Positions 22,452 through 43,267 of a DNA stretch of 64,000 bases are shown in pieces. The stretch spans positions 124,001 to 188,000 of the forward strand of contig NZ_JAHNZT010000003.1 in the NCBI RefSeq assembly GCF_019039035.1, written 5' to 3'. The position numbers were made by a program, and so were the translations under genes. Each line of letters starts with the position of its first letter. The first letter of the stretch is position 1. The notes beneath the pieces were generated by a model that saw only the letters and a list, made by a program, of their open reading frames with translations, did no database searches and had not been told where the DNA came from. The DNA comes from Citreicoccus inhibens (GTDB lineage: Bacteria; Myxococcota; Myxococcia; Myxococcales; Myxococcaceae).

Positions 22452-24578
22452 CTACCGCGAGGTCGAGATACGGGCGACCGGCTGGATGTTCAGGTCCGGC
22501 GACAGCTCCTGGTAGCTGAGCACGGAGAACGACGGCGTGAACTCGTACTCGAGCAGCTTGCGGACGTAGCGCCGGATGTCCATGGCGGTCAGGATGACCG
22601 GGCGCTGCGCGCTGGGCGGCAGGTGTCCGCACTCCGAGCGCACGGCCTGCACAATCTCCGCGGCGATCTCCGGCTCCAGCGCGAGGTGCGCGCCCGCCGA
22701 GGTCCGCTTGATGGAGCTGCGGATCGCCTCTTCAATCTGCGGGTCCAACAGGTAGACGACCAACGTCCCCGTTCCACGCGCGTACTTGTGCGAGATGTAC
22801 CGGCGCAGCGAGGCACGGACATGCTCGGTGAGCATGACGTTGTCCGCCTCCACCTGCCCGTACTCCGCCAGCGCCTGGAGGATGCCACGCAGGTCGCGGA
22901 TGGAGATCTCCTCCTCCGTCAGGCGGCTCAGGATGTCCGTCAGCTTGAGCACGTTGACGACCTTCGGCACCACCTCCTTGACGATGGCGGGGAAGGCCTT
23001 CTCCAACTGCTCCAGCATCGTCTGCGTCTCCTGCACTCCCACGAACTCGCGAGCGTTCTTCCGCAGCAGCGCGGCCATGTGCAGGATGATGTAGCCGGGC
23101 ACGTCCCACGTGGTGAGGCCCGCGGCCTCCAGCGTCTCGCGGTACTGCTCCGGCACCCACGCGGCGGGCTGACGCGTGGCGGGGTTCACCGCCTCGAAGC
23201 CCTGGATGTTCATCAACCGCAGGCGCTCCACCGTGTCGTTGACCAGGATGTGGCCCAGCGTGGCCTGGCCCGTGACGATGGGGACTTCGTTGAGTTGAAT
23301 CTGATACGCGCCCGGCGGCAGCGAGCCGTTACCGCGCGCCCGCACGCCCGGGAAGCGAACACCCAGCTCCACGAAGAGACCGTCGCGCATGAACGGGACG
23401 AGCTCGAAGAGGAACTTGCCGTTGTCCTGCCGCGAGTCCACGTAGGGCACGAGGGCATCGGACACCTCGAGCACGATGGGCGTGACCACCGGGATGAACA
23501 GCTCGGAGTCCGGATTCATCGACTCCTTGGGCGCCGGCTCCGACGACATCGGCGTGCCGTTCTCCATCTCCATGGACGGCGGCGCGTCCTCGCCGGCGGC
23601 CTCGGCATCCTTCGCCTTCAGCATCTTCCAAGCGCCAAAGCCCGCGCCCGCGCCCAGGAAGAAGAACGGAATCTTGGGCAGACCGGGGATGAGGCCGAGC
23701 GCGATGAGCATGCCCGAGGCGATGGCGATGGCCTTCGGGTACGCGGTGAGCTGGCTGCCCACGTCCTTGCCAAGGTGGGCTCCCTCCTCCTCGCCACCGA
23801 CGCGCGTCACGATGATGCCGGCGCAGGTGGAGATGAGGATGGCCGGAATCATGCCGACCAGACCGTCACCGATGGTGAGCAGCGTGTACTTCTGCGCCGC
23901 GTCGCCGACCGCCAACCCCTTCTGGGTCACGCCGATGATGAGGCCACCGACGATGTTGATGACGGTGATGATGATGGACGCGATGGCGTCGCCCTTCACG
24001 AACTTCATGGCGCCGTCCATGGCGCCGAAGAGCTGACTTTCTCGCTCCAGGTCGCGGCGCTTCTTCTTGCCCTGGTCCTGATCGATGACGCCCGCGCGCA
24101 GGTCCGCGTCGATGGACATCTGCTTGCCGGGCATGGCGTCGAGGGTGAAGCGGGCGGCCACTTCGGCCACGCGCTCCGAGCCCTTCGAGATGACGATGAA
24201 GTTCACCACCACCAGGATGAGGAAGATGATCATCCCGACGATGAAGTTGCCCTGCACCACGAACTTTCCGAACGCCACGACCACCTCACCCGGGTCGCCG
24301 GTGAGGAGGATGAGTCGGGTGGTGGAGATGGTCAGTGCCAGCCGGAACATCGTGGTGATGAGCAGCAGCGTCGGGAACACCGACAGGTGCAGCGCGGCGG
24401 GCACGTAGAGCGAGATGAGGAGCAGGACCACCGAGATGCTGATGTTGAGCGTCAGCAGCACGTCCAGCAGCAGTGTGGGCAGCGGGACGATCATCATCCC
24501 GACGATGGCCACGACCACGATCGCCAGGACGATGTCGGAGTACTTGGACAGGAAGCTGTTCGGGTTGGCGGTAGCCAT
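22452..24578 (-). CDS. sctV: Type III secretion export gate protein SctV (FHIPEP family)
   Basis: The largest export-apparatus protein, forming the nonameric ring below the gate and receiving substrates from chaperones. The 708 residues comprise about eight N-terminal membrane helices (to ~330), with the FHIPEP region around TTMFRLALTISTTRLIL and the charged loop RFTLDAMPGKQMSIDADLR, then a large cytoplasmic domain (about 370-708). Proton-path charged residues in the FHIPEP loop are present. It is the last gene of the minus-strand T3SS locus, separated from the other gate genes (sctRSTU) by the needle-like cluster. ATG 24578 is the natural start. It could be mistaken for FlhA, but no flagellar structural genes are nearby. 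Confidence 0.93.
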   Translation of the reverse strand: MATANPNSFLSKYSDIVLAIVVVAIVGMMIVPLPTLLLDVLLTLNISISVVLLLISLYVPAALHLSVFPTLLLITTMFRLALTISTTRLILLTGDPGEVVVAFGKFVVQGNFIVGMIIFLILVVVNFIVISKGSERVAEVAARFTLDAMPGKQMSIDADLRAGVIDQDQGKKKRRDLERESQLFGAMDGAMKFVKGDAIASIIITVINIVGGLIIGVTQKGLAVGDAAQKYTLLTIGDGLVGMIPAILISTCAGIIVTRVGGEEEGAHLGKDVGSQLTAYPKAIAIASGMLIALGLIPGLPKIPFFFLGAGAGFGAWKMLKAKDAEAAGEDAPPSMEMENGTPMSSEPAPKESMNPDSELFIPVVTPIVLEVSDALVPYVDSRQDNGKFLFELVPFMRDGLFVELGVRFPGVRARGNGSLPPGAYQIQLNEVPIVTGQATLGHILVNDTVERLRLMNIQGFEAVNPATRQPAAWVPEQYRETLEAAGLTTWDVPGYIILHMAALLRKNAREFVGVQETQTMLEQLEKAFPAIVKEVVPKVVNVLKLTDILSRLTEEEISIRDLRGILQALAEYGQVEADNVMLTEHVRASLRRYISHKYARGTGTLVVYLLDPQIEEAIRSSIKRTSAGAHLALEPEIAAEIVQAVRSECGHLPPSAQRPVILTAMDIRRYVRKLLEYEFTPSFSVLSYQELSPDLNIQPVARISTSR

Positions 24579-24657: not shown

Positions 24658-25134
24658 TCAGGAACGGGAGGCGGCGCCCGAGGCACCGTCGGAGGCCTGA
24701 GCCTCCTCGGCGCTCTCCAGCGCTGCGGCGGCGAGCATCCGGGCGCGGTTGCTCAAGGGGTCCTTGTTCTCCGGGTCCAGCGACACGGCGTGCTGGAAAT
24801 CCTGGGCCGCGTCCATCACCCGCCCTTGCCGGAGATACGCCTCGCCCCGGTTCACGAACGGCGTGAGGTCCGTGGGATCCAACTCGATGGCGCGGTTGAA
24901 ATACGACACGGCCTGATCCAGGTCCTCGAGCGCCAGGTAGCACGCGCCCAGGGCGGTCTGGAAATACGCCTCCGTCGAGTCCATGGCCGCCAGCGTCTGG
25001 AAGATCGCGAGCGACTCGCTGAACTGCCCATCCTGGAACAGGTTGAAGCCCTCAGTGGCCCGCTCGAGCATCTCGGGGCCGGAGAGCGGCTTCGGGGTGT
25101 CGTTCGACAGGGGGTCCTTCGATTCAGTCGTCAT
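24658..25134 (-). CDS. TPR protein, SycD/LcrH-type class II chaperone-like
   Basis: The 158-residue protein contains about three TPR units: FNLFQDGQFSESLAIFQTLA, then AYFQTALGACYLALEDLDQA, then the next pair. The size and repeat number match SycD/LcrH-like type III chaperones, which hold translocator or filament proteins in the cytoplasm. It lies between sctV and the gene at 25230 on the same strand. Start MTTESKD at 25134 is chosen because upstream codons are Ala/Pro-rich without a TPR match. The partner is unknown; one of three similar genes in the locus. Confidence 0.7.
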   Translation of the reverse strand: MTTESKDPLSNDTPKPLSGPEMLERATEGFNLFQDGQFSESLAIFQTLAAMDSTEAYFQTALGACYLALEDLDQAVSYFNRAIELDPTDLTPFVNRGEAYLRQGRVMDAAQDFQHAVSLDPENKDPLSNRARMLAAAALESAEEAQASDGASGAASRS

Positions 25135-25229
25135 CTGCGCGTTCACCGGGGCGAGGGCAGCAGCGGCCGGGAGTCTAGCGTGAGGCCCCCGCGCATCCAA
25201 ACGGGGGCAACTCGGAAGCGATTCTCCGG

Positions 25230-25700
25230 CTACCAGGACTGCTCGGCCTGCGCCTTCGCCTTCGCCATGATGTCGTTCATCGACTTGTCGATGATCGACT
25301 TGAAGATGTAGGCCGAGGAGGACTCCTTGCTGTAGATGTCCTTCACGTTCTTCTTGATGTCGTCGAGCGACGCGTTGGGGTGGTCACGAAGATACTCGTT
25401 GACCTTCTTGTCGATCTTCTCCTGCGTCGCCTTGCCCGTCGCCTCGCCCAGGTTGCCCATGAAGCTGGCGTAGGCGTTCTTCGTCTGGCCGACGACCGCC
25501 TGGGTGTACTGCTCCCGGTTCTCCGGCGTCAGGCTCTCCGAGGGGGAGCTCTCCATCATCTTCTGGTAGGCCTGGAAGACCGCGTCCTGCGAAGCCGCCG
25601 TCGGATCCGCGCTGTTCGACTTCGGAGCCGGCGTGGTGCGGTTGGTCGCCGTGGTCGCGGTGGTGCGGGGAGCGGAGCTCGAAACCGAAGGGGGAGCCAT
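25230..25700 (-). CDS. Unknown helical T3SS-locus protein, possible secretion substrate
   Basis: Not recognised. The 156 residues have a Ser/Thr/Pro/Ala-rich disordered head (1-35), typical of type III signals, and then amphipathic helices ending in IIDKSMNDIMAKAKAQAEQ. There is no signal peptide or membrane helix. ATG 25700 has an upstream AGGA. About 39 bases further upstream lies a good sigma-28-like promoter (25739-25768), the same kind found before the needle-like genes. It is followed by the SycD-like chaperone gene at 24658, a common substrate-chaperone order. A substrate role is inference. Confidence 0.65.
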   Translation of the reverse strand: MAPPSVSSSAPRTTATTATNRTTPAPKSNSADPTAASQDAVFQAYQKMMESSPSESLTPENREQYTQAVVGQTKNAYASFMGNLGEATGKATQEKIDKKVNEYLRDHPNASLDDIKKNVKDIYSKESSSAYIFKSIIDKSMNDIMAKAKAQAEQSW

Positions 25701-25738
25701 GGATTGCTTCCTCGTTTTCCGATGATGCGTTTTCCTGA

Positions 25739-25768: not shown

Positions 25769-25895
25769 GTCCCACAGGGCACATACGCGAGCAGGCACGC
25801 GGGCTGGCGCTGGGCCCCGAAACGCCGCCGGCCCCGCCCCAGCATCCCCAGGAGGGACGCCAGAACAGGGCCGGAAGGTGCCGACTCGAACCTGA

Positions 25896-26117
25896 TTACT
25901 TCAGGTTGCCGATGGCCGCCTTCGCCATCTCGTCCATCTTCTTCATCAGGTTGGTGATCATCTCCATCACCTGCGAGTCCTGCTGAACCTTCTTCTGCGC
26001 CTCCAGGAAGCCACGCTGCTCCGGCGGGGCCTGGGCGATCATCGCATCCATCGAGGACTTCTGGGACGACGCGGTCGAGATGGCGGTGGAAACGATGTTG
26101 CTCATGCCGCTGGCCAT
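25896..26117 (-). CDS. SctF-like (needle/filament-type) small protein, copy 1
   Basis: A 73-residue helical protein without signal peptide. Its second half (FLEAQKKVQQDS through IGNLK) has the pattern of type III needle subunits: Leu-x-x-Gln near the turn, Ser-Asn-like spacing and a C-terminal Ile-x-Asn-hydrophobic-basic end. It shares 13 of 37 positions with the C-terminus of the protein at 43323. It differs from copies 2 and 3 at three residues (Ala16, Lys20, Ala25 instead of Ser, Arg, Glu). Length fits SctF (about 70-85 residues). It could instead be an abundant early substrate. A promoter lies at 26164-26192. Confidence 0.65.
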   Translation of the reverse strand: MASGMSNIVSTAISTASSQKSSMDAMIAQAPPEQRGFLEAQKKVQQDSQVMEMITNLMKKMDEMAKAAIGNLK

Positions 26118-26163
26118 GGATTTGCCCTCTGTCTGCGAGAAGTGTGGAGAAGCTTTGAAGAGG

Positions 26164-26192
26164 TTATCGCAACGGCCTCCGCAGTGTTGCGT
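26164..26192 (-). promoter_or_regulatory. Sigma-28-like promoter of needle-like copy 1
   Basis: Minus strand ACGCAAC (26186-26192), 14 bases, TGCGATAA (26164-26171). An A-rich tract (26199-26218 on this strand) lies just upstream of the -35, like an UP element. The start codon is about 47 bases downstream. Confidence 0.55.
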
Positions 26193-26344
26193 ACTCGATA
26201 TTTTTTCTTTGTTTTTGTCCGCGCCGTGGATCAGCCGGGCCCCTTGAGCGCCCAGGGGTCCGGGCCCCGAAACGCCGCCGGCCCCGCCCCAGCCTCCCCG
26301 AAGGGACGCCAGAACAGGGCCGGAAGGTGCTGACTCGAACCTGA

Positions 26345-26566
26345 TTACTTCAGGTTGCCGATGGCCGCCTTCGCCATCTCGTCCATCTTCTTCATCAGGT
26401 TGGTGATCATCTCCATCACCTGCGAGTCCTGCTGAACCTTCTTCTGCGCCTCCAGGAAGCCGCGCTGCTCCGGCGGGGCCTGGGCGATCATCTCGTCCAT
26501 CGAGGAGCGCTGCGACGACGACGTCGAGATGGCGGTGGAGACGATGTTGCTCATTCCGCTGGCCAT
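26345..26566 (-). CDS. SctF-like (needle/filament-type) small protein, copy 2
   Basis: The 73-residue product is identical in protein sequence to copy 3 and differs from copy 1 at three positions (Ser16, Arg20, Glu25). The N-terminal third is Ser/Thr/Ala-rich; the rest is a helical hairpin broken by QAPPEQRGF (about 28-36), as expected for a needle-type helix-turn-helix with Pro in the turn. The TAA stop sits in a small perfect hairpin (AACCTGA / TCAGGTT) conserved in all three copies. It has its own sigma-28-like promoter. Confidence 0.65.
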   Translation of the reverse strand: MASGMSNIVSTAISTSSSQRSSMDEMIAQAPPEQRGFLEAQKKVQQDSQVMEMITNLMKKMDEMAKAAIGNLK

Positions 26567-26613
26567 GATTTTTACCCTCTGGATTCGAGATGCGTTGGGA
26601 AGCTTTGTACTGA

Positions 26614-26642
26614 TTATCGGTGAAGCCTCGGGGCAGTTGCGT
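26614..26642 (-). promoter_or_regulatory. Sigma-28-like promoter of needle-like copy 2
   Basis: Minus strand ACGCAAC (26636-26642), 14 bases, ACCGATAA (26614-26621). The -10 matches seven of eight positions of GCCGATAA. An A-rich stretch lies upstream. The start codon is about 48 bases downstream. Confidence 0.6.
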
Positions 26643-26806
26643 CCTCCCGATTTTCCCCGCCTTTTTCACCCTACCCCCTGGATCAGCCAGAGCCCGCAGG
26701 GGCGCGGGGCTCCAGAACGGCCCGGGCCCCGAAACGCCGCCGGCCCCGCCCCAGCCTCCCCGAAGGGACGCCAGCACAGGGCCGGAAGGTGCCGACTCGA
26801 ACCTGA

Positions 26807-27028
26807 TTACTTCAGGTTGCCGATGGCCGCCTTCGCCATCTCGTCCATCTTCTTCATCAGGTTGGTGATCATCTCCATCACCTGCGAGTCCTGCTGAACC
26901 TTCTTCTGCGCCTCCAGGAAGCCGCGCTGCTCGGGGGGAGCCTGGGCGATCATCTCGTCCATCGAGGAACGCTGCGACGACGACGTCGAGATGGCGGTGG
27001 AGACGATGTTGCTCATTCCGCTGGCCAT
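26807..27028 (-). CDS. SctF-like (needle/filament-type) small protein, copy 3
   Basis: The 73-residue product is identical in amino acids to copy 2, but the genes differ by several silent bases, which suggests selection on the protein or gene conversion. Start MASGMSN at 27028 is chosen to match the other copies; an in-frame start five codons upstream exists. It is the first copy in transcription order. Its promoter (27089-27117) is the most divergent of the three. The upstream gene at 27179 is on the same strand, 150 bases away. Confidence 0.65.
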   Translation of the reverse strand: MASGMSNIVSTAISTSSSQRSSMDEMIAQAPPEQRGFLEAQKKVQQDSQVMEMITNLMKKMDEMAKAAIGNLK

Positions 27029-27088
27029 GGTTCTACCCTCCAAGAAAGTGCAGCGAGTGGTTTGGAACGCGAGGAAGCTACAAGCAGA

Positions 27089-27117
27089 TTATCCGAGGGC
27101 GCCGCTGGGAGTTTCGT
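27089..27117 (-). promoter_or_regulatory. Sigma-28-like promoter of needle-like copy 3
   Basis: Minus strand ACGAAAC (27111-27117), 14 bases, TCGGATAA (27089-27096). The weaker -10 is offset by the same spacing and A-rich upstream tract as in copies 1 and 2. The start codon is about 61 bases downstream. Confidence 0.45.
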
Positions 27118-27178: not shown

Positions 27179-27769
27179 CTAACCCTTCAACTTTCCGAGG
27201 CTCGGGTTCTTCATCCAGGCCTTGAAGGACTCGAGCTGCTGCTGCTCCGCCTTTGGATCAGACGAAGGCGCGGTCGAGGTGCCGTCCAGCGACATCGGAC
27301 GCTTACCACCTGACTCGAAGCCGTCCTTGGCCCCCGTCGCCGGACGGTTGCCGGCGGCCGGAGCCGGGGCGGCGGGCGCGGCACCCGCGGGAGGCGTGAT
27401 CGCCAGCTTCGCGCCGATCTCCGGGTTCATCTGCATGACCGCCGTCTGGATGGTCATGCCGTAGGTGGTGATGCGGTACTGGAGGTACTCCACCACCTGG
27501 CCGAGGATGGGCGGCGGCGGCAGGATGGGGTCCTTCATGAAGCGGTTGAGCGCGTCCTTCACGTCACCGTAGAGCTGCTGATCCAGCGGCGCCGTGGGGG
27601 CCGTCGCGGCCACCAGCTTGCGCATGTTGCGCAGGACCTGCTGGAAGGTCCCCGTGGCCACCTTGGCCTGGGCCTCCAGGTCGACCAGCAGCTTCTCGCG
27701 CTTCACGGCCAGCTCCGGCGGCTCCGGCGGAAGCGGCGGGGGCTGCTTGGCATTCGTCGGGGTGGTCAT
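27179..27769 (-). CDS. Unknown T3SS-locus protein with Pro/Ala-rich ends
   Basis: Not recognised. The 196 residues start with a Pro-rich segment, then a helical core (about 20-112, including LLVDLEAQAKVATGTFQQVL and LGQVVEYLQYRITTYGMTIQ). An Ala/Pro-rich linker and a charged tail ending WMKNPSLGKLKG follow. There is no signal peptide. It lies directly upstream of the needle-like triplication and downstream of the SycD-like gene at 27846, so it may be a substrate, a chaperone partner or an assembly factor. ATG 27769 is the first in frame. No convincing promoter; AGGATAG at about 27811-27817 is only a weak sigma-28 match. Confidence 0.6.
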   Translation of the reverse strand: MTTPTNAKQPPPLPPEPPELAVKREKLLVDLEAQAKVATGTFQQVLRNMRKLVAATAPTAPLDQQLYGDVKDALNRFMKDPILPPPPILGQVVEYLQYRITTYGMTIQTAVMQMNPEIGAKLAITPPAGAAPAAPAPAAGNRPATGAKDGFESGGKRPMSLDGTSTAPSSDPKAEQQQLESFKAWMKNPSLGKLKG

Positions 27770-27845: not shown

Positions 27846-28322
27846 TCACCGACGCCCGAGGGCGGAGAGCATGGCGCCGGCCTTGCGGATGACGGGATCG
27901 TCCTGCGGGGTCATTGCCGCGGCACGCCGCAGGTCCTCCATGGCCTGCTGCTTCTGGCCCATGGCCAGCTTGACCTCGGCGCGCCCGACGTAGACAGAGG
28001 CGTCCTGCGGGGCGAGCTTGGCGGCGACGTCAAAGGCGGCCAGCGCGCCCTGCCCGTTTCCAGCGGCCATCTCCACCACGCCCAGCGCCTTGGCGAAGTA
28101 CACGTCGGTGGGGTTCACCGCATACAGCCCCTGGAAGAGCGTGCGCGCCTCGCTCACCCGGCCTTGGTAGAAGAAGTAGTAGGCCGTCTTGGCGATGGCG
28201 TGCAGCTCCTCGTCCGAGTAGCCGCGGACGTCGCGCAGCGTGGCCTTGCCATCGGCCCACCGCTGCAGCGACGCGACGAGCTTCGCCTCGTCCTGGGGAT
28301 TCTCCGGGTCCAGCACCGCCAT
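27846..28322 (-). CDS. TPR protein, SycD/LcrH-type class II chaperone
   Basis: The 158-residue protein has the classic SycD layout: a leader with YSDEELHAIAKTAYYFFYQG, then three TPRs (ARTLFQGLYAVNPTDVYFAK, ALGVVEMAAGNGQGALAAFD, and YVGRAEVKLAMGQKQQAMED). In known systems such chaperones bind hydrophobic translocators. Start MAVLDPEN at 28322 lies 2 bases after the stop of the upstream gene, indicating co-translation. It is the closest of the three TPR genes here to true LcrH proteins. Confidence 0.8.
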   Translation of the reverse strand: MAVLDPENPQDEAKLVASLQRWADGKATLRDVRGYSDEELHAIAKTAYYFFYQGRVSEARTLFQGLYAVNPTDVYFAKALGVVEMAAGNGQGALAAFDVAAKLAPQDASVYVGRAEVKLAMGQKQQAMEDLRRAAAMTPQDDPVIRKAGAMLSALGRR

Positions 28323-28324
28323 GC

Positions 28325-28804
28325 TCAGAAGCCCTCGTCCTTCTGCTCCGCCCACATGCGGCGGAGGATCTCCTGCGTCTCGCTGTTCACCTGGCCCACC
28401 AGGTTGAGCATGGCGGACTCGCGGCTGAGCAGCGCCTTGAGGCGGTCCAGGCGGTCCGGCGGCGCGTTCACCTTGGAGAGTCCGCGCTCCAGCATCCGGC
28501 GCTGATCGCCATCGCCTCGGCCCGCCACGCTGGCCAGTTGGGGCCGGTCACTGAAGCCCTCCAGGTCCGCGTCGTGCCCCTCGGGGTGCGGTGGCAGCGG
28601 CAGCCGCAGCTCCTCGGAGGAGTGCGCCGGCCCGATGAAGTCCAGCAGGGCCGCGGAGGCCAGGGCCGGGTTCTTCGGGTTGCCCGCCTTGCGAAGCTTC
28701 TTGCGCTCGAGCTGGGCCGGATCCACCAGCCGCTCGCGCACGCTGCGAGGTCCCCCCCAGGGCCACAGGGGCGCCTTGGGAGGCTGGTTGTTGATTCTGG
28801 ACAT
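28325..28804 (-). CDS. Unknown T3SS-locus protein
   Basis: Not recognised. The 159-residue hydrophilic protein has a Pro-rich N-terminus (PPKAPLWPWGGPRS), a middle with DFIGPAHSSEELRLPLPPHP and a helical C-terminus (about 105-155, LDRLKALLSRESAMLNLVGQ). There are no membrane helices. It is immediately followed by the SycD-like gene, and its C-terminal helices could be its partner. It is translationally linked to the neighbours in the gate-gene operon. Confidence 0.6.
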   Translation of the reverse strand: MSRINNQPPKAPLWPWGGPRSVRERLVDPAQLERKKLRKAGNPKNPALASAALLDFIGPAHSSEELRLPLPPHPEGHDADLEGFSDRPQLASVAGRGDGDQRRMLERGLSKVNAPPDRLDRLKALLSRESAMLNLVGQVNSETQEILRRMWAEQKDEGF

Positions 28805-28850: not shown

Positions 28851-29132
28851 TCAGCTCCCGCCCGCCTGCTCATTCTGGAGGGCGAAGACGAAGTTGAGGA
28901 CCTCGGCGACCGCGTCATACAGCTCTTCGGGAACCTCTTGTCCCACGTCCACCCGATACAGGGCGTTGGCCAGGGACACGTTGCGCATGACGGGGATGCC
29001 GTACTGCTTGGCAATCTCACGGATCTTCTCCGCCTTGAGGCGCATCCCCTTGGCCACGACGCGAGGGGCGCCGTCGGTCTGCTTGTCGTACTTGAGCGCG
29101 ATCGCAAGCTCGGCCTCGTCTTCACTGCTCAT
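28851..29132 (-). CDS. FlhX-like protein: free C-terminal domain of SctU/FlhB family
   Basis: The 93-residue protein is clearly homologous to the last ~85 residues of the adjacent SctU (for example GAPRVVAKGMRLKAEKIREI and VPEELYDAVAEVLNFVFAL). It lacks the membrane domain and the autocleavage site; the position of NPDH in SctU reads EAEL. Flagellar systems sometimes have such a free FlhB C-terminal homologue (FlhX) that can replace the cleaved domain in substrate switching. It lies 40 bases downstream of sctU, evidently a partial duplication kept under selection. Confidence 0.85.
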   Translation of the reverse strand: MSSEDEAELAIALKYDKQTDGAPRVVAKGMRLKAEKIREIAKQYGIPVMRNVSLANALYRVDVGQEVPEELYDAVAEVLNFVFALQNEQAGGS

Positions 29133-29172: not shown

Positions 29173-30246
29173 TCACGCGCGCGCGGCCGGCGACGGGTTC
29201 TTCAACCCGTAGACGAAGTTGAGGACCTCGGCCACCGCGTCATACAGCTCCTCGGGGACCTCATGGCCCACCTCCACGCGCAGGAGCGCGTGGGCCAGGG
29301 GAACGTTGCGCAGGGCGGGCACGTCCGCCTCCCGGGCAAGGGCCTTGATGCGCTCGGCCCGCGAGTCCATGCCCTTGGCCAGCACCCGAGGCGCGCCGTC
29401 CGCGTCCCGGTCGTACTTGAGCGCCACGGCGACGTGGTCCGGGTTGGTCACGATGACGTCCGCGTCCTTCACGGCCTCCATCTGCGCGCCCTCCATGATC
29501 TCCTGATGGAGTTCCTTGCGCTTGGCCTTGTGGTGGGGGTCGCCCTCGCTCTCCTTGTACTCCTTCTTCACCTCCTCCTTCGTCATCATCATGTCCTTCA
29601 TGAAGGACTTGCGCTGCCACCAGATGTCGAAGATGCCGAAGAGGAGGAACAGGAGGCCGATGCGAACGCAGACCCGGTACACCAGCTCGCCCATGATGCC
29701 CATGATGGCGCGCGTGTCCTGACGCACCGTCTCCACCACCAGGGGCATCGCGTCACGCACGACGCCGTAGACGACGTAGGCCGCGACGGTGATCTTGATG
29801 AGGTTCTTGAGCAGCTCGACGATGGCCTTCTTGTTGAACATGTTCTTCAAGCCGGCCAACGGGTTGAGCTTGTCGAACTTGGGGATCAGCGGATCCATGG
29901 TGAAGAGCGAGCCCACCTGGAGAAACTCCAGCAGGCCCCCCATCACCGCCGCGCCACCGGCCACCGGAACCGTGAGCACGAGCAGCGTCCGCACCGCCAG
30001 ATACAGCGACTGCGAGGTCGCCTCGGCCAGCGTCTCGGGATGCGCGATGTGATCGAACGTGAAGTGGAACAGCGAGGTGACTTCCTGCTCCACCGAACTC
30101 CACGTGCCCTTCACGATGCCCAGGCCCGCGATGAACACGGCCACGCCAGTCAGGTCCTTGCTCTTCCAGACCTGACCCTTCTTGCGCGCGTCATCGAGCT
30201 TCTTTTGCGACGGTTCTTCTGTCTTGTCGCCACTCTCGTCGGACAT
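29173..30246 (-). CDS. sctU: Type III secretion switch protein SctU (FlhB/YscU family)
   Basis: The 357-residue gate protein controls substrate switching. It has four membrane helices (about 30-50, 85-110, 145-165 and 188-208) preceded by the typical GDKTEEPSQKKLDDARKKGQ, a linker helix and the cytoplasmic domain. The self-cleavage motif, usually NPTH, reads NPDH at residues 268-271 inside VTNPDHVAVALKYD. The Asn-Pro pair that breaks is kept, while Thr is replaced by Asp. It ends with the same helices seen in the FlhX-like neighbour. Gene order SctR-S-T-U matches non-flagellar and flagellar systems. Confidence 0.94.
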   Translation of the reverse strand: MSDESGDKTEEPSQKKLDDARKKGQVWKSKDLTGVAVFIAGLGIVKGTWSSVEQEVTSLFHFTFDHIAHPETLAEATSQSLYLAVRTLLVLTVPVAGGAAVMGGLLEFLQVGSLFTMDPLIPKFDKLNPLAGLKNMFNKKAIVELLKNLIKITVAAYVVYGVVRDAMPLVVETVRQDTRAIMGIMGELVYRVCVRIGLLFLLFGIFDIWWQRKSFMKDMMMTKEEVKKEYKESEGDPHHKAKRKELHQEIMEGAQMEAVKDADVIVTNPDHVAVALKYDRDADGAPRVLAKGMDSRAERIKALAREADVPALRNVPLAHALLRVEVGHEVPEELYDAVAEVLNFVYGLKNPSPAARA

Positions 30247-30266: not shown

Positions 30267-31085
30267 CTAGGCGAGCAGCCGGATGGCGTCCTGCAGCATG
30301 CGCAGCATGCCGGCCATCTCCGTCTGCATCCGCTCGATGACGAGCTGGATGGCGATGAACGCGATGAGCACGCCCACCAGCGGCTTGATGGACATGGAAA
30401 TGAAGAAGACCTGAATCTGCGGCGCCACGCGGTTGATGGCCCCCAGCGCCAGGTCCGTGAGGAACGTGGCCAGCATGGACGGCGCGGCCAGCGCGAGGCT
30501 CACCTTCAGCAGGTCCGCGAACACGCGCATGATGACGTTGAAGAACGGCCAGATGCCGTGGCTGAAGTGAGGGAAGCCGTACAACGGCACCGTCATGAAG
30601 CTCTCCGCCAGCGCCCGGATGACCATGTGGTGGCCATCCAAGGTGAGGAACAGCACCACGGACAGCTGCACGTTGAGGCTGGAGAAGAGCGAGACCTGCT
30701 GGCCGAGCTGCGGCACGTAGAGCTGTGCGTTGTTGCTGCCCGCCATGGTGTCCGCGAGCGTCCCCGCCACGCGGGCCGCGTCAAAGACGGTGTTGACGAT
30801 GAACGCCAGCGCCATCCCGAGGAAGACCTCTTTGATCAGCAGCGCCATGTACGGCAGCGCGCGGACGGGGATGTTCTCCATGCCCTCGCTGGCCACCGGG
30901 AAGAGCACGACGGCGAGCAGCAGGCCCACGCCCATCTTCACTTCGGACGGGACAACCTCTCCGCCCAGGAAGGGGCTGAAGATGAGCACGGGCATCACCC
31001 GGCACATCACCAGCGCCACCGTGAAGATGACGAGCGAGAGGTTGGTGCGCCCGCTCAGCTGGGCGAGGGCTTCCGCGACGTTCAT
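30267..31085 (-). CDS. sctT: Export gate protein SctT (FliR/YscT family)
   Basis: The 272-residue inner-membrane protein has about six helices, with FliR/SctT features: RVMPVLIFSPFLGGEVVPSE near the N-terminus and FFISMSIKPLVGVLIAFIAI near the C-terminus. It forms part of the export pore with SctR and SctS. Its ATG overlaps the sctS stop by 4 bases (ATGA), so translation is probably coupled. Confidence 0.93.
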   Translation of the reverse strand: MNVAEALAQLSGRTNLSLVIFTVALVMCRVMPVLIFSPFLGGEVVPSEVKMGVGLLLAVVLFPVASEGMENIPVRALPYMALLIKEVFLGMALAFIVNTVFDAARVAGTLADTMAGSNNAQLYVPQLGQQVSLFSSLNVQLSVVLFLTLDGHHMVIRALAESFMTVPLYGFPHFSHGIWPFFNVIMRVFADLLKVSLALAAPSMLATFLTDLALGAINRVAPQIQVFFISMSIKPLVGVLIAFIAIQLVIERMQTEMAGMLRMLQDAIRLLA

Positions 31086-31348
31086 CGGGAAATGAGGGCC
31101 GGGAACCGGTCAAACACGTGGAACGTGAAGCGCAGCAGCTGACTGCCAATCCACGGCCCCGTCATCGCCAGCACTCCGAAGACGATGATGACCTTGGGCG
31201 CGAACGTGAGCGTCTGCTCTTGAATCTGCGTGGTGGCCTGGAACAGCGAGATGAGGAAGCCCACCAGCAAGCTGATGAGCACCGGCGGCGCCGAGACGAC
31301 GAGCACCAGGAACAGCGCCTCCTGGGTGACGACCGTGAGCTGATTCAT
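31082..31348 (-). CDS. sctS: Export gate protein SctS (FliQ/YscS family)
   Basis: The 88-residue protein has two membrane helices forming a hairpin and the family motif SLFQATTQIQEQTLTFAPK (about 34-52). Size and motif are exactly as in FliQ/SctS. It lies between sctR and sctT with short or overlapping junctions. Confidence 0.94.
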   Translation of the reverse strand: MNQLTVVTQEALFLVLVVSAPPVLISLLVGFLISLFQATTQIQEQTLTFAPKVIIVFGVLAMTGPWIGSQLLRFTFHVFDRFPALISR

Positions 31349-31363
31349 GGGGGCGAGTGCTCC

Positions 31364-32197
31364 TTACAGGTAGCCGATGACCAGGCCCTTGGCGATGAGG
31401 TACCAGCCATCCACGAGCACGAAGAGCAGCAGCTTGAAGGGCATGGAGATGGTCGTGGGCGACAACATGTGCATGCCCAGGGCGAGCAGGATGTTGGCCA
31501 CCACCATGTCGATGACGATGAACGGCACGAAGAGCAAGAAGCCGATCTGGAAGGACTCCTTCAGCTCGGAGACGACGAAGGCCGGGACGATGACCATGAA
31601 GTCCTTCTCCTGCACGTCCTGGCGGTCCTCCTCCTTCCGCATCTTCTTGGCGAGGCTGTAGAAGAGCGTGCGGTCCTTCAGGGTGACCTTCTTCAAGAGG
31701 AAGTCGCGCAGAGGCTCCTTGGAGCGGTCCGCCGCGCTGAGCATGGTGCCCACCGTCTCCGAGGAGAAGACCCCGGGCCCCCGCGCCCAGATGTCCACAC
31801 CACCCGCCCGGTACATCTCCTGTCCCACCGGGGCCATGATGTAGACGGTGAGGATGACCGCCAGGCCGGTGATGACCTGGGTGGGCGGAATCTGCTGGGT
31901 GCCCAGCGCCGAGCGGACGATGGAGAGCACCACGGAAATCTTCACGAAGCTGGTGACCATCATCAGCGCGAACGGCACCAGCGACAGCGCCGCGAGCGCC
32001 AGGACGAGGATGAGTGGGCGCGACGTGAAGGAGTCGGAGCTCACCGTCTCGTTGACGACGTGGTCCGGAACCACCGGCCCTCCTGCGCCGGGCTTCTTGG
32101 CCGCCAGCGCGACGAGGGGGTGCAGCGAGACAGCGGCCGCGAACAGCCACGGCGAGACGCGGGAGACACGGCGGGCTGCGGGCGACGAGGAGTTCAC
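31364..32197 (-). CDS. sctR: Export gate protein SctR (FliP/YscR family)
   Basis: The 277-residue pentameric pore protein of the gate. GTG 32197 is chosen because it follows the fliO-like stop by 10 bases and has GAAGG upstream; an ORF start at 32233 would overlap the neighbour. An N-terminal signal-like helix and a spacer (to ~65) resemble FliP more than short SctR proteins. The core has FVKISVVLSIVRSALGTQQI, PVGQEMYRAG and the C-terminal membrane pair with NILLALGMHMLSPTTISMPF, all diagnostic. Confidence 0.94.
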   Translation of the reverse strand: MNSSSPAARRVSRVSPWLFAAAVSLHPLVALAAKKPGAGGPVVPDHVVNETVSSDSFTSRPLILVLALAALSLVPFALMMVTSFVKISVVLSIVRSALGTQQIPPTQVITGLAVILTVYIMAPVGQEMYRAGGVDIWARGPGVFSSETVGTMLSAADRSKEPLRDFLLKKVTLKDRTLFYSLAKKMRKEEDRQDVQEKDFMVIVPAFVVSELKESFQIGFLLFVPFIVIDMVVANILLALGMHMLSPTTISMPFKLLLFVLVDGWYLIAKGLVIGYL

Positions 32198-32207
32198 GTG
32201 ACGACCT

Positions 32208-32888
32208 TCAGACTCCCGGCGGCGTCGAGCCACCGGTCCGGCGGGAGAGGAGCTTCTGGAGGAAGGGACTCAGGGACACCACGTTGGAGGGCGGGCGCTC
32301 GGCGCGGATGCGCTCCACGGCCTCCCGGTCCAACTTCGACAACAACTGGAGGCCGCTCTCGCCGCCTCCGCCGCCCACGAGCAGGTATTCGTCCGCGGCC
32401 TTCACCACGAACAGCGTGCGGCGCTGATCCAACGGGACGCGCTCCAGCACCGAGATGACCGAGGGACGCCCCATGGGCACGCCCTGCAAGCCCATCAGCC
32501 GGCGCAGGCCCACGTTCAGCGTCAGGTAGATGGACGCCACCACCGCGCCGAGCACGGCCAGCGTGCGCACCAGCGTCCACGCGAGACTCTCGGGCTCCTC
32601 GCTCACGCCGGGAGGCGCGCCCGCGCCCAGCTCCTGGGCCAGCTCCGCCTGGCGCGCCGCCGCCGAGTTCGCCCCATCCACCGCGGCGGGCGAGGCCACT
32701 GGGGCACTTGCTGGCGCATGCGCTTCACCGACACCCGCATCCACGACGGCCGTGGGCACAGGGGTGGGGACCGAGGGACGGGCCGCGGATGCGCCGGGGG
32801 CGGGGGCCTGAGCCAGCACACCCGACGGAGCGAGCACCAGCGCGGCGCCGATCGACAGGCGCGACAAGAAGAGACGGAACACTGCCAT
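32208..32888 (-). CDS. FliO-like membrane protein in the T3SS gate operon
   Basis: The 226-residue protein has a signal peptide (cleavage near VLAQAP), an Ala/Pro-rich periplasmic segment, one membrane helix (about 105-125, LVRTLAVLGAVVASIYLTLN) and a cytoplasmic domain with SVLERVPLDQRRTLFVVKAA and EYLLVGGGG. This is the pattern of FliO, the flagellar helper that stabilises FliP. FliO is normally absent from non-flagellar systems. Position directly before sctR supports the call. Sequence similarity is moderate. Confidence 0.75.
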   Translation of the reverse strand: MAVFRLFLSRLSIGAALVLAPSGVLAQAPAPGASAARPSVPTPVPTAVVDAGVGEAHAPASAPVASPAAVDGANSAAARQAELAQELGAGAPPGVSEEPESLAWTLVRTLAVLGAVVASIYLTLNVGLRRLMGLQGVPMGRPSVISVLERVPLDQRRTLFVVKAADEYLLVGGGGGESGLQLLSKLDREAVERIRAERPPSNVVSLSPFLQKLLSRRTGGSTPPGV

Positions 32889-32982
32889 GGCTGGGGGGCG
32901 AGCCTAGTTCACCGGACGACGGACCGCCACGGTCCCCCACCCTTCCCGAGCGGTCCTGGCCGCCTGCCCGGGTCCACCCGGC

Positions 32983-34332
32983 TCACCCCGCCAGGGAGAG
33001 GATCCGCACGCCAAGCTGGCCCTCCATCTCGACCAGCTCGCCTCGCGCCACGACCTTGCCGTTGACGGACAGCTCCACGGGCTCACCCGGCCCGCGGTGC
33101 AGCTCGATGACCTGACCCGAGCGCAGCCCCACCACCTGCTCGGCGGTGACCGGCACCCGCGCCAGCTCCACGGCGACCTGCAAGGGCACATCGCCCAACA
33201 AGTCGCTTCCCTCCGGCTTGTTCACGTCGTCCAAGGCCGCCCCTTCGAGTTCCGGAGGCATGTCCAGCTCCGGGTTGGTGAACTCCTCGTCTTCTTCGCC
33301 CTGCGCGCCCCCCTCGGCCTCCACCACCGCGCGCGGGTGGCCCGGCTCTCCGAGGATGACGTCCGTGATGCGCGCCTGGTACTGCCCGTCCTCGAGGATG
33401 ACCTCGGCGGCCATGTAGCCAGCGCGCCCCGAGCCCAACCGCAGCTCCGCGGTGCCGTTCTCGCCCCGGTCGGGCCGCGCCGACAGCGCGTCCACCAGCA
33501 GCACGTCCTTGACGCGGAGGCTCGCCAGGTCCTGGCCGGAGATCTCCGCCACGCCAATCTCCGCGCGCAACCAGTCCCGCAGTGTGGACAGCCGCCGGGC
33601 ATGGGCCGCCCAGTCCGCCCGGGCCTGGGTCCGCCGCTGCTCGCTCTCCACGGTGGGCTCGGCCGCCGCCAGCACCGCGGACGGCACCACGAAGCGAATC
33701 ATCCCGGAGTGCGCCCCGAGCGACGCTTGCAGGTGCACGGCCAACATGGGGCCGTCCTCACCGAGCCGCGCGGAGACCTCATCCACGCCTCGCGACATGC
33801 CATCCAGCCGAGGCCGGGGCACTCCGGGCTGGAGTCCGGGCGACAGCACCTTGAGCGCCTCGAGGATGACGTAGCCCATCACGCCCTCCTCGATGTCCGT
33901 CAGCGGCCTCAGGCCCACCGTCTCACCGGCGCCCCCCAGGAGCAGGTCCACGGTGGCGTGCGCCAGGGCCAGCTCGACTTCCATGACGGCGCGGCCCTTG
34001 AGGGCGCCCGGAGCCAGCACCGCGAGGAACGCGGGGTCGCCCAGGAACCGGCGCAGCTCCGCCATGGGCCGCACCTGCACGGACTCCACCGACAGGCGCA
34101 CCTCGACGTCGAAGAGGGCCTTGAGGCGCGCGGCCACCGCCGCCAGCGTTCCCTCGGCGGGCTGCAACCAGCGCAGGCGCTCCGCCAGGAGGCCCTGCTC
34201 GCGCGACACCTTCTCCAGGTTCTGGAACGTGAAGGGCCGCCACGCCTTCTCCGGAGGCCGCAGCTTCCGGAGGTCCACCAGCATGGTGCGCTCGTTGACT
34301 CCCGGCTCCTCGTCGGGCCCGCCCATGCTCAT
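32983..34332 (-). CDS. sctQ: C-ring/sorting platform protein SctQ (FliM-FliN/YscQ family)
   Basis: The 449-residue protein has a long N-terminal part and a C-terminal SpoA (FliN-type) domain (about 375-447). The latter contains VPLQVAVELARVPVTAEQV, GLRSGQVIEL and the final LGVRILSLA. A second SpoA-like region may lie around 245-330. SctQ forms the cytoplasmic sorting platform. Its ATG overlaps the sctP-like stop (ATGA), so the two are coupled. It is longer than YscQ (about 310 residues), mostly by an acidic linker around 330-360. Confidence 0.88.
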   Translation of the reverse strand: MSMGGPDEEPGVNERTMLVDLRKLRPPEKAWRPFTFQNLEKVSREQGLLAERLRWLQPAEGTLAAVAARLKALFDVEVRLSVESVQVRPMAELRRFLGDPAFLAVLAPGALKGRAVMEVELALAHATVDLLLGGAGETVGLRPLTDIEEGVMGYVILEALKVLSPGLQPGVPRPRLDGMSRGVDEVSARLGEDGPMLAVHLQASLGAHSGMIRFVVPSAVLAAAEPTVESEQRRTQARADWAAHARRLSTLRDWLRAEIGVAEISGQDLASLRVKDVLLVDALSARPDRGENGTAELRLGSGRAGYMAAEVILEDGQYQARITDVILGEPGHPRAVVEAEGGAQGEEDEEFTNPELDMPPELEGAALDDVNKPEGSDLLGDVPLQVAVELARVPVTAEQVVGLRSGQVIELHRGPGEPVELSVNGKVVARGELVEMEGQLGVRILSLAG

Positions 34333-35273
34333 GCCTTGGCCTCGAACTTCAGCTGCTCCAAGGTCAGGCCGCGGCCGCCCAGCGCGCTGCGCAGGCCCTC
34401 ACCTTGCTCCTCCAGCATCTTCAGCACCTGGCGATCGCTGCCGCTGAAGACCGCGCTGATCTTCCCGTTGCGCGCACTGACCTTGATGGACAGGCCGTTG
34501 AGCACATCGCCGCGCAGGTCGAGCTGGAACTCCGCGTTGCCCGCCGCGTTGGTGCCAATGCGCACGCGCTCCACGATCTTCTGGGCGATCTCACTCGCCA
34601 TCGCGCGCAACCGCTCCGAGCCCGCCGCGGACGGCTTGGGCTTGGCCACTGGCACGGGCGCCATCAGCGCCGGATTGAAGCGGAACCCCGCGGCCACCTC
34701 GCCGCCGCCCTCCTTCTTGCCGTCCTTGCCGCCCCCGCCGCCGCCCTTGCTCCCGCCCGAGTCCGACTCGGCCTTGAGTTCGCCCTTCTCCGAGCTGGCG
34801 CGTCCGGCGCTGGCGCTCGCCTTGGACAGGTCACCGTCGCGGGTCTCGGTGCTGCGGCGGTCCTCACGCGACTCGACGTGACGGGACTCGGCGCGCGCCT
34901 CGGCGCTGCTCGCGTTGGCGGAGGCCTGCTGGCTGGCGCTGCTCGTCCCCTCGCGCCCCGAGGTGCTCTCCGTCTGGGACTTGCCGCCCTGGTTGGCGCG
35001 CTCGGCCTCGCCAGACTGCTTCTGGGCCACGCGCTCGTCGAAGGTCTTCCCCTGCGTCAAGCCGCTCTGCGTGGCGCGCGCGAGCACCGCCCGGGCCAGG
35101 CCCTGGGGCTGGTGCGTCTGGGTGGCCTTCTCGGCCTGTCCCTGCTGGACGAGCTTGGAGAAGACGGACTCGCCTTCCTGGCGCTTCTTGGTCTTGGCCT
35201 CGGCGAGCTTGCGCTCCTGGATGAGGCGCTCGGCCAGCCTCGCTGCATCGCGATCGTCGTCGACTCGGCTCAT
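34329..35273 (-). CDS. sctP: SctP/FliK-like length-control protein
   Basis: The 314-residue protein consists of a long disordered Ser/Glu/Gly/Lys-rich region (about 30-200, with a Gly run near 178) and a C-terminal FliK-type domain (about 225-312, including AEFQLDLRGDVLNGLSIKVS and GLRSALGGRGLTLEQLKFEA). Such proteins measure needle or hook length and trigger the switch through SctU/FlhB. Position between sctO and sctQ matches SctP in other systems. The disordered region is the expected ruler. The call rests mainly on the C-terminal domain and position. Confidence 0.75.
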   Translation of the reverse strand: MSRVDDDRDAARLAERLIQERKLAEAKTKKRQEGESVFSKLVQQGQAEKATQTHQPQGLARAVLARATQSGLTQGKTFDERVAQKQSGEAERANQGGKSQTESTSGREGTSSASQQASANASSAEARAESRHVESREDRRSTETRDGDLSKASASAGRASSEKGELKAESDSGGSKGGGGGGKDGKKEGGGEVAAGFRFNPALMAPVPVAKPKPSAAGSERLRAMASEIAQKIVERVRIGTNAAGNAEFQLDLRGDVLNGLSIKVSARNGKISAVFSGSDRQVLKMLEEQGEGLRSALGGRGLTLEQLKFEAKA

Positions 35274-35309: not shown

Positions 35310-35798
35310 TTACTTGCGCTGGCGTGCCAGGAACAAGGCATTGCCAATCTCCTCCTGCGTCAGCTCCTCGCGCTGCTGGCGCTCGGCCCGGACCTGTTTC
35401 TGCCAGGTCTCCTTGTTCTTCTCGATGGCCTTCAGCTCCTTGGCGGCCTCGGCCATGACGTACCGGCGCTGCTCCACGGCCCGTTCGGCGGCCTTCACCA
35501 GTTCCTTCTGGTGATCAATCTGGAGCGCCACCTGCGCCTCGTCGTCCTTGAGGCGCTCCTCGAACCGGTTCATCAGGTTCATGCCGTTGATGCCGGCGCC
35601 CTTGGCCATGACCTGCTGGAGGTACTCGGCCACGCGCGCCTTGCGCTCACGCTTGCGGCGCTCCAGGTCGGCCTCCAGGCGCTGCTGCTCGACCTTCTCC
35701 TTCTCCAAGACCTTGAGGGCGGCGGAGAAGGCCTGCTCCGCCTCCTCCTTGGCCTTGGTGCGCATGTCCAACAGGGCTTGCAACCGATACGGGGGCAT
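35310..35798 (-). CDS. sctO: ATPase stalk protein SctO (FliJ/YscO family)
   Basis: The 162-residue protein is almost entirely a charged antiparallel coiled coil (Glu/Lys/Arg/Gln-rich), starting with PPYRLQALLDMRTKAKEEAE, which is typical of FliJ/SctO. It acts as the central stalk linking the SctN ATPase to SctV and recycles chaperones. It lies between sctN and sctP, the conserved position. Confidence 0.88.
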   Translation of the reverse strand: MPPYRLQALLDMRTKAKEEAEQAFSAALKVLEKEKVEQQRLEADLERRKRERKARVAEYLQQVMAKGAGINGMNLMNRFEERLKDDEAQVALQIDHQKELVKAAERAVEQRRYVMAEAAKELKAIEKNKETWQKQVRAERQQREELTQEEIGNALFLARQRK

Positions 35799-35861
35799 GG
35801 GGTCCCCATCCTATCCCGGATTGCGGCGCGCGCGGGCCTCCCCGTGGACGGAAGGGGTCCC

Positions 35862-37172
35862 TCAGTCCTGGAACAGCTGGATGAGCTGCTCCACCGTGTC
35901 CTCGTAGGCCGAGTTCGAGTGGGTGTCCTGCTTGAGGAACTCGATGATGGAGTCGTACTTCTCGATGGCGTAGTCGGTGCGCGCGTCCGCGCCGGACTGG
36001 TAGGCGCCCAGCAGGATGAGGTCGCGCTGCTTCTCGTAGGTGGCGAGCGTCTCGCGCAGCTTCCCGGCCGCCTTCTTGTGGTCCTTGGAGACGATGCCGC
36101 TCATCACACGGCTGAGGCTGGCCAGCACGTCCATGGCGGGCCACTGGTTTCGCTCGCCCAGGGCGCGGTTGAGGATGAAGTGGCCGTCGAGAATACCGCG
36201 GACCTCGTCCGCGATGGGCTCCTCCATGTCACCGCCGGCCACGAGGCACGTGTAGATGGCGGTGCACTTGCCCTTCTCCGAGTTGCCCGTGCGCTCCAGG
36301 ATGCGCGGCAGCATGGAGAACACACTGGGCGGGTAGCCCTGGCGGGCCGGCGGCTCGCCCACCGCGAGGCCAATCTCACGCTGGGCACGCGCCAGACGCG
36401 TCACCGTGTCGAGCATGAACAGCACGTTGCCGCCCCGCTCGCGGAAGTACTCGGCGATGGCCGTGGCGACGTAGGCGGCGCGCAAGCGCACGAGGCTCGG
36501 CTGATCCGACGTGGCGCACACGAGCACGGAGCGCTTCATGCCCTCCTCGCCCATGGCGTCTTCGATGAACTCGCGAACCTCGCGACCACGCTCGCCGATC
36601 AGCGCGACGACGCAGAGGTCGGCTTGGGTGTTGCGGGCGATCTGCCCCATGAGGGTGGACTTACCGACGCCGGAGCCGGCGAAGAGTCCCACGCGCTGGC
36701 CCTCGCCCACCGTCAGCAGGCCGTCGATGCAGCGCACGCCCAGGGGCAACGGGCGCTCGATGCGCTGGCGCGTGAAGGGGTCCGGACAGTCGCGGTCCAC
36801 GGACCAGTCGATCATCCCTTCCGGCAGGGGGCTGCCGTCCATGGGCTCGCCGATGCCGTTGAGCACGCGCCCCAGGAGCCCCTCGCCGCACTTGATGCTC
36901 AAGGGGCGCCCGGTGGGGATGACCTCGCTGTCGGGGCCGATGCCGAACAGCTCGCCCAGGGGCATCAGCATGACCTCGTCGCCCTGGAAGCCCACGACCT
37001 CGGCCTTCACGGCGCCGCGCGTGCGGCTCTTGATGAGGACCAGCTCGCCCACGCGGACGTTGGGCACGCTCGCCTTGATGACCAGTCCGGTCAGCTCGGT
37101 GACGCGACCGCGGACGCGCACGAGCGAGGCGTCCTTGATCAGCTCGAAGTAGCGCGACAGGTCGATGGCCAT
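35862..37172 (-). CDS. sctN: Type III secretion ATPase SctN (FliI/YscN family)
   Basis: The 436-residue hexameric ATPase releases substrates from chaperones. Walker A is GLFAGSGVGKST (162-173) and the following VVALIGERGREVREFIED is diagnostic of the FliI/SctN group rather than F1-beta. DSVTR-like Walker B reads FMLDTVTRLARAQ. An N-terminal beta-barrel domain (to ~85) and C-terminal helices complete the protein. Length is normal. It is followed by sctO and preceded by sctL. Confidence 0.96.
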   Translation of the reverse strand: MAIDLSRYFELIKDASLVRVRGRVTELTGLVIKASVPNVRVGELVLIKSRTRGAVKAEVVGFQGDEVMLMPLGELFGIGPDSEVIPTGRPLSIKCGEGLLGRVLNGIGEPMDGSPLPEGMIDWSVDRDCPDPFTRQRIERPLPLGVRCIDGLLTVGEGQRVGLFAGSGVGKSTLMGQIARNTQADLCVVALIGERGREVREFIEDAMGEEGMKRSVLVCATSDQPSLVRLRAAYVATAIAEYFRERGGNVLFMLDTVTRLARAQREIGLAVGEPPARQGYPPSVFSMLPRILERTGNSEKGKCTAIYTCLVAGGDMEEPIADEVRGILDGHFILNRALGERNQWPAMDVLASLSRVMSGIVSKDHKKAAGKLRETLATYEKQRDLILLGAYQSGADARTDYAIEKYDSIIEFLKQDTHSNSAYEDTVEQLIQLFQD

Positions 37173-37191
37173 GGCGGTCGCCTCCGCCGGC

Positions 37192-37863
37192 CTAGGCCGG
37201 CCCTTCCTTCTTGGCCGAGTCCGGCAGGAGGATGTTCTGGAGCATCTCGAACTGGGTGGGCAGCTGCGCGTCCACCGTGCCGAACTCCGTCTGGACGATG
37301 CAGCCCACCGGAGCGACCTCCTGGTCCTCCTTGATGGCCAGGTCGACCGCGCGGCCGATGAGCTCCATCAGCACTGGCTTCTTGGCGCGCAGCACCGCCG
37401 CCGTCTTGGGGTGCACGCGCAGGACCATGGAGCGGGCGTTGCGCAGGTTGTCGATGGCGGACGCGCACATGTCCACCAGCAGCTCCGGATCGCGCTCCAG
37501 GTCGCGGCCGAGAATCTTCTGGGCCACCTTGAGCGCCAGCTCGATGACGTCGCGCTCGTGTGAGGCGAGGATCTCCCCAGCCTGCATCTTCGCGCGGAGG
37601 ATGATCTCCGAGGCCTGGGCGAGGCCCTCCTGACGGCCCTGCTCCCGAGCCCGGGCGATCGTCTCCTCACGCTCGCGCTGGGCCTCCGCGAGGATGCGCT
37701 CCTTCTCGCGCTGGGCATCTTCCAGGATGCCATGCGCGCCCTGGCGGGCCTCAAAGACCTCGGCGTTCATCACGCCGGCGCGGGGAGGACGCAGCACGGG
37801 CCGCTCCGCCGGAATGGCTGGCTCCGCGGTCCCATCCCCCTTGATTACCTTGCCGATCGCCAT
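37192..37863 (-). CDS. sctL: ATPase regulator/stator SctL (FliH/YscL family)
   Basis: The 223-residue protein has a coiled-coil N-terminal half rich in Glu/Arg/Gln (QREKERILAEAQREREETIA) and a globular C-terminal half (DVIELALKVAQKILGRDLER, VGCIVQTEFGTVDAQL), the standard FliH/SctL layout. It links SctN to SctQ and regulates ATPase activity. It ends 19 bases before the sctN start. Confidence 0.88.
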   Translation of the reverse strand: MAIGKVIKGDGTAEPAIPAERPVLRPPRAGVMNAEVFEARQGAHGILEDAQREKERILAEAQREREETIARAREQGRQEGLAQASEIILRAKMQAGEILASHERDVIELALKVAQKILGRDLERDPELLVDMCASAIDNLRNARSMVLRVHPKTAAVLRAKKPVLMELIGRAVDLAIKEDQEVAPVGCIVQTEFGTVDAQLPTQFEMLQNILLPDSAKKEGPA

Positions 37864-43227: not shown

Positions 43228-43267
43228 GGGACGCCGCGCTTCCTTTCCAAGGGCCGGAAGCACGGAA

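Follow-up and report, generated by a model that had tools for sequence, protein, structure and literature searches.

Three tandem genes in a 64,000-nucleotide stretch of the 9.05 Mb genome of Citreicoccus inhibens (NZ_JAHNZT010000003.1, 124,001-188,000; the whole stretch is hereafter called the window, and coordinates refer to it) likely encode a diverged SctF-family needle, or filament, subunit of the type III secretion system (T3SS) whose gene cluster they lie in. The myxobacterial system of this type, T3SS*, is a contact-dependent predation system required for prey lysis by M. xanthus (PMC12075869), and it has been described as having no secretin, needle or translocon (PMC12075869; PMC10849154). 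SctF is inferred to have been lost in the myxobacterial branch, a survey scoring the system as SctF-negative (PMC3459982), and the tips of Kil pili have been proposed as a needle substitute (PMC12075869). Three genes of the cluster encode a protein related to, though diverged from, the needle subunit, and calling this system "needleless" is therefore probably incorrect. The evidence consists of homology, position and promoter sequence; export, polymerisation, sigma factor use and a role in predation are inferred.

The three genes are as follows:
25896-26117, minus strand: needle-like gene copy 1, 73 residues, the variant with A16, K20 and A25
26345-26566, minus strand: needle-like gene copy 2, 73 residues, matched by the SctF hidden Markov model (HMM) at E 7.4e-4 (Z=22161)
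26807-27028, minus strand: needle-like gene copy 3, 73 residues, the same protein as copy 2

They make up the top-scoring tandem array of the window (25812-27040; period 462, 2.7 copies, 89% matches, score 1877), with the open reading frames (ORFs) head to tail and ATG-to-ATG distances of 449 and 462 bases. A preliminary description, made from these letters alone, had reported a tandem triplication in which copies 2 and 3 share a protein and not their DNA while copy 1 is three residues off, and both the array and the comparison of the ORFs agree with it: copies 2 and 3 encode identical proteins with four synonymous differences, and copy 1 is changed at residues 16, 20 and 25. Upstream, every copy has a GATAA(T/C)C element of its own and a ribosome site rich in purines. 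The array is not an assembly artefact, since a second genome of the genus (the genus assignment of comparison genomes is inferred) has an orthologous array of four copies in the same place, including an orthologue of the copy 1 variant.

Related genes of 71-74 codons are widespread in Myxococcaceae-type genomes, and the Pfam family that their products match most often is T3SS_needle_F (6 of 15 members, best E 4.9e-5); in a genome search the needle model PF09392 aligns to family members over positions 4-71 (E 0.00175). An SctF profile was made from 11 non-myxobacterial needles, found with Pfam in environmental genomes. Run as an HMM over 22,161 ORFs, it ranks the family directly behind the true needles (E 2e-9) and detects window copy 2 itself at E 7.4e-4. 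The reverse search with the family HMM retrieves the genuine SctF of Lampropedia (E 0.023; its own PF09392 match has E 1.1e-18). The preliminary description had likened the proteins to SctF and proposed a profile comparison as the check, and HHalign gives a probability of 94.5% (E 7.8e-8, score 40.8) for the family against the 11 needles. Controls fall far lower: the best of 300 column shuffles scores 16.0 with a best probability of 3%, the reversed profile scores 11 (probability 0.4%), and 13 other families of the same cluster score at most 23. The family alignment used here has 8 distinct rows, which makes the profile weaker rather than inflated. Against all sequences of the PDB, the family profile finds 7y6c_F first (E 2.4e-4), a 43-residue chain from the entry of a needle-protein chaperone; I read it as a C-terminal helix of needle type, although the depositors' chain name mentions a co-chaperone.

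The position of the genes is constant. The order in related loci is TPR chaperone, X, TPR chaperone, SctV, where X is a needle-type protein; in each locus whose slot lies inside a contig, a protein with a needle-type C-terminus stands between TPR chaperone 2 and TPR chaperone 1/SctV. It is either short (71-74 residues, in 1-5 copies) or long (about 140-300 residues in stop-to-stop frames, sometimes duplicated). Taking SctV of this type as at least 62% identical (n=66 genes), at least 50 of the 66 loci have a family match listed within 10.5 kb, for which the chance expectation is about 0.1% per locus. The other 16 include contigs that end in the slot (e.g. G055) and long-form loci with weaker, unlisted matches; those inspected, contig-end cases aside, have a needle-type slot protein, the weakest matches being borderline. 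The SctV scan of the genome collection returned mostly FlhA-type flagellar genes and yielded two loci from Archangium metagenome-assembled genomes (MAGs) and several T3SS loci. Thus the likeness to SctF is borne out by profile searches, by profile-profile comparison and by the conserved T3SS slot. That it reflects chance similarity of amphipathic helices is very improbable: spurious matches are typical of short helical proteins, and a fold search did find unrelated coiled coils, but neither shuffled or reversed profiles nor 13 other families produce such a match, and the matches obtained are reciprocal and fall at one position in the locus. I rejected this explanation on those controls together with the constant slot.

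Several observations on such loci stand apart. In one locus (L067:7740-9475), two identical needle genes flank a DUF1521 protein (E 2.2e-13) and the TPR chaperone that belongs to it; this domain has been described in NopE-type secreted effectors, which makes the protein a candidate T3SS* effector. A DUF1521 effector search of the C. inhibens genome, made without a positive control, found none. Orphan needle-like genes lie outside any T3SS cluster at L056:8379-8600, L057:8876-9133, L217:7078-7290 and L218:6838-7059. A Verrucomicrobia MAG (G129 C35; L182, L189) carries two tandem SctF genes, and needle duplication is therefore not limited to myxobacteria. The C. inhibens genome itself has a second T3SS (C45:58000-66000; SctV, U, T, S, R, Q, J and I) with a long needle-like protein beside SctI.

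AlphaFold2, given two window sequences, predicts a helix at residues 3-29, a break at Ala30-Pro31 and a helix at 32-72, so the preliminary description of a helix-turn-helix protein, here a helical hairpin, was right; the mean predicted local distance difference test score is 76.6, with the N-terminal 20 residues below 60, and the topology is unchanged when canonical needles are added. At 73 residues, with two helices and a proline-containing turn, the protein falls within the range of SctF (about 70-85 residues). Hairpins of similar size also occur as the needle co-chaperone SctE and the early substrate SctX, and weak structure matches to 2uwj_E and to 7qij/8arb chains (Z 3.9-4.7, in the noise) speak for multicopy cytoplasmic factors of this sort. 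This reading is improbable, given that the sequence profiles pick SctF and no chaperone family is matched, grounds on which I rejected the co-chaperone; moreover, 3-5 identical copies with late-type promoters better suit a structural subunit.

The remainder of the cluster supplies the export apparatus and inner rod of a T3SS (SctV, U, T, S, R, Q, O, N, L, J and SctI):
22452-24578, minus strand: SctV export gate (TIGR01399, 820.8 bits)
24658-25200, minus strand: LcrH/SycD-like TPR chaperone 1 (TIGR02552, E 1.6e-21, below cut-off)
25230-25706, minus strand: 158-residue slot neighbour with the same promoter type (site near 25744, 16.4 bits)
27179-27769, minus strand: 196-residue proline-rich protein, a conserved neighbour with no family match
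27846-28355, minus strand: LcrH/SycD TPR chaperone 2 (TIGR02552, 115 bits, over cut-off)
28851-29132, minus strand: orphan FlhB/SctU C-terminal domain, 93 residues (PF01312, E 3.1e-28)
29173-30246, minus strand: SctU (TIGR01404, 392 bits)
30267-31085, minus strand: SctT/FliR (profile match)
31082-32233, minus strand: SctS and SctR (by position and sequence; kept in related loci)
32208-35273, minus strand: FliO-like protein, SctQ (FliM/FliN) and FliK/SctP-like protein (PF04347, PF02154/PF01052, PF02120)
35310-37863, minus strand: SctO, SctN ATPase and SctL (PF16789, PF00006/PF18269, PF02108/PF06635)
40179-40994, minus strand: SctJ inner ring lipoprotein (TIGR02544, E 2.4e-41)
41097-41681, minus strand: SctI inner rod (PF17001, E 8.9e-5; NF038054, E 0.0043; both below cut-off)
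41545-42378, minus strand: FliA/WhiG-type sigma factor (TIGR02479, E 9.4e-34; Sigma70 r2 and r4), overlapping the end of SctI
42796-43263, minus strand: LcrH/SycD-like TPR chaperone 3 (TIGR02552, E 1.9e-14)
43323-43883, minus strand: 186-residue protein with a needle-like C-terminus (PF09392, E 0.042; TIGR02105, E 0.029)

Distant relatives of the 158-residue protein occupy the same slot in related loci, and the free-standing FlhB/SctU domain, which adjoins full-length SctU, is likewise kept. The separate SctI gene bears on the idea that the 73-residue proteins are extra inner-rod subunits. Rod and needle are related, and one family member has a weak SctI match (E 0.012), but the alignment of the cluster's SctI reaches 0.2% against the 73-residue family and 62% against SctF; an SctI paralogue is thus scarcely credible and was rejected.

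A number of results weigh against a needle. In hmmscan the window copies go unmatched by Pfam and NCBIfam, only the family alignment and not the single copies giving a Pfam-type signal, and the short relatives reach at most about 22 bits against a Pfam needle cut-off of 29.4 (the long slot proteins of genomes G066 and G002 score 33). This blank, together with surveys that call the system SctF-negative (PMC3459982), also bears out the earlier suggestion that the subunit had escaped similarity searches. Most of the local profile alignment falls in residues 22-73, and the first, N-terminal helix, which is weakly supported, is the less certain of the two. Monomer fold searches with two models (Foldseek, VIA-align) returned generic helical hairpins or unrelated coiled coils and no SctF; on these models such searches do not discriminate between a needle and other hairpins. 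The secretin SctC of a canonical injectisome is lacking at the window locus: PF00263 matches the genome at three places, all outside the window, the nearest (C57:90737) about 55 kb off. The cluster has no recognised translocon; its genes of 158, 159 and 196 residues match nothing in Pfam or NCBIfam. Tip and translocon families evolve fast. Elsewhere in the genome, a 509-residue protein on contig C90 (L049:6351-8416) has a sub-threshold NolX match, a needle-like C-terminus and an adjacent TPR chaperone, and is a candidate translocon encoded outside the cluster.

The 186-residue protein at 43323-43883 could also be the needle instead. It is glycine- and alanine-rich and adjoins TPR chaperone 3, a second filament or tip candidate. 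Were it the real SctF, the 73-residue proteins would be a needle-extension filament or a hydrophilic tip or translocator of the EspA/SctA kind. Both chaperones that flank the array are LcrH/SycD-like, a class established as serving translocators, in several lineages the slot is filled by long proteins that are needle-like in their C-terminal part only, and in the second T3SS of C. inhibens only the long kind is recognised. However, in short members the alignment to SctF spans positions 4-76, whereas in long ones it is mostly limited to the C-terminal 40-50 residues; a length of 71-74 residues is that of a needle, and no EspA model was matched. I consider this alternative unlikely, though less so than the others.

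The upstream regions of the family have in common the elements AGGAAACTCC ... CCGATAATC-N3-TTGTAG. The distance from GAAA to NCCGATAA is 15 bases, as in sigma-28 promoters, whose consensus is TAAA-N15-GCCGATAA; both spacing and -10 element agree with this consensus, and the first base of the -35 element is G. A conserved promoter with this spacing precedes most copies. A position weight matrix (PWM) built from other genomes, with 30 Markov-shuffled windows as the null (maximum 11.5 bits), was applied to the window:
27087-27115, minus strand: sigma-28-like promoter of copy 3 (GAAACT-N16-GATAATC, 29.4 bits)
26612-26640, minus strand: sigma-28-like promoter of copy 2 (GCAACT-N16-GATAATC, 19.0 bits)
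26162-26190, minus strand: degenerate promoter of copy 1 (GCAACA...GATAACC, 4.7 bits, within the null range)

These results qualify the earlier statement that each copy has its own promoter: against the family consensus the match is strong for copy 3 and clear for copy 2, but weak for copy 1, whose degenerate element nevertheless keeps its position in the sister genome. Copy 3, copy 2 and the 158-residue neighbour rank first to third in the window, all above the null maximum. A fourth site, near 43961 and 78 bases upstream of the 186-residue gene, scores 10.1 bits, within the null. GVAACT-N16-GATAATC has three exact matches in the genome, namely copy 2, copy 3 and a site on contig C41 (C41:120433; L194:1501-2257) upstream of a helical ORF of 216 or more residues that is cut by the contig end, possibly a co-regulated substrate. 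No sigma-28-like promoter was found at the two orphan needle-like genes examined in genome G079. The FliA/WhiG-type sigma factor of the cluster is the probable regulator of the needle promoters, although a sigma factor of the extracytoplasmic function type may use them.

Between the two same-genus genomes, promoter identity is 0.88-0.95 by position and 0.62-0.75 between copies, while coding identity is 0.94-1.00 throughout the copies. Elsewhere, five copies can match at every coding base with differing upstream regions, and a single protein is encoded in five of six arrays compared, the sixth having two variants (promoter identities in this comparison are ungapped and underestimates). Coding sequences that are homogenised beside promoters that have diverged, yet are conserved by position in two species, indicate differently regulated copies. 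The pattern points to gene conversion, or to purifying selection that acts strongly on the protein, with promoter differences retained, more than to simple dose; the earlier proposal that copy number raises dose may be just part of the explanation.

If the genes do encode a needle, the subunit would be exported unfolded through the SctRSTUV gate with the aid of the flanking TPR chaperones and would build a short filament or needle by polymerising on the SctI rod. The FliA/WhiG-type sigma factor, whose gene lies 15 kb away, would drive its synthesis, just as sigma-28 drives that of flagellin, and copies with the same protein and different promoters would give a graded or differently timed supply upon prey contact. 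The chief difficulty for a needle, and a point that counts against it, is the missing secretin: the filament would have to cross the outer membrane with no secretin dedicated to it. Since recruitment of T3SS* reportedly depends on the Kil/Tad system (PMC12075869), which has its own secretin KilC, a common outer-membrane route is conceivable. The fuller picture, a needle-bearing T3SS without its own secretin that is supplied by a multicopy array whose flagellar-type promoters are graded, and that reaches prey through or with the Tad/Kil pilus secretin, is offered only tentatively.

Compared with known systems, the closest are the SctF needles (PF09392/TIGR02105: PrgI, MxiH, YscF, SsaG, EscF), which the window proteins resemble in size, in two helices around a proline-containing turn, in the C-terminal pattern L-x-x-Q ... 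K-x-x-x-(D/E)-x-x-x-x-I-x-N, and in a T3SS-locus position with a separate SctI rod gene. They differ in being under Pfam/NCBIfam detection, in their 1-5 tandem copies with sigma-28-like promoters, and in a locus without a secretin or recognised translocon. The EspA/SseB needle-extension filaments are secreted filaments that share the needle-like C-terminal helix, and the longer slot proteins are similar to them in size, but no EspA profile is matched and the window proteins have only 73 residues. Flagellin genes under sigma-28 (FliA) offer a parallel for a filament-type subunit with a FliA/WhiG-type sigma factor in its cluster; here, however, the promoter is GAAA-N15-NCCGATAA rather than TAAA-N15-GCCGATAA, with G and not T at the first -35 base, and the pairing of sigma factor and promoter is putative. 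If true, a multicopy array with diverged promoters would be an unusual way of supplying a needle subunit, nearer to flagellin families. Finally, the cluster agrees in gene content and taxon with the myxobacterial T3SS* ('Myxo' non-flagellar T3SS; M. xanthus mxan_2434-2464; PMC12075869, PMC3459982), and what appears new is a needle, multicopy and under flagellar-type promoters, in a system held needleless, well supported for the needle by homology and synteny. As published, SctF is absent from that system and inferred lost, whereas the window cluster has a needle-type gene in a constant slot. Such a gene bears on the question of how T3SS* delivers anything without a needle and would, if true, revise both the account of delivery by Kil tips and the evolutionary model of SctF loss.
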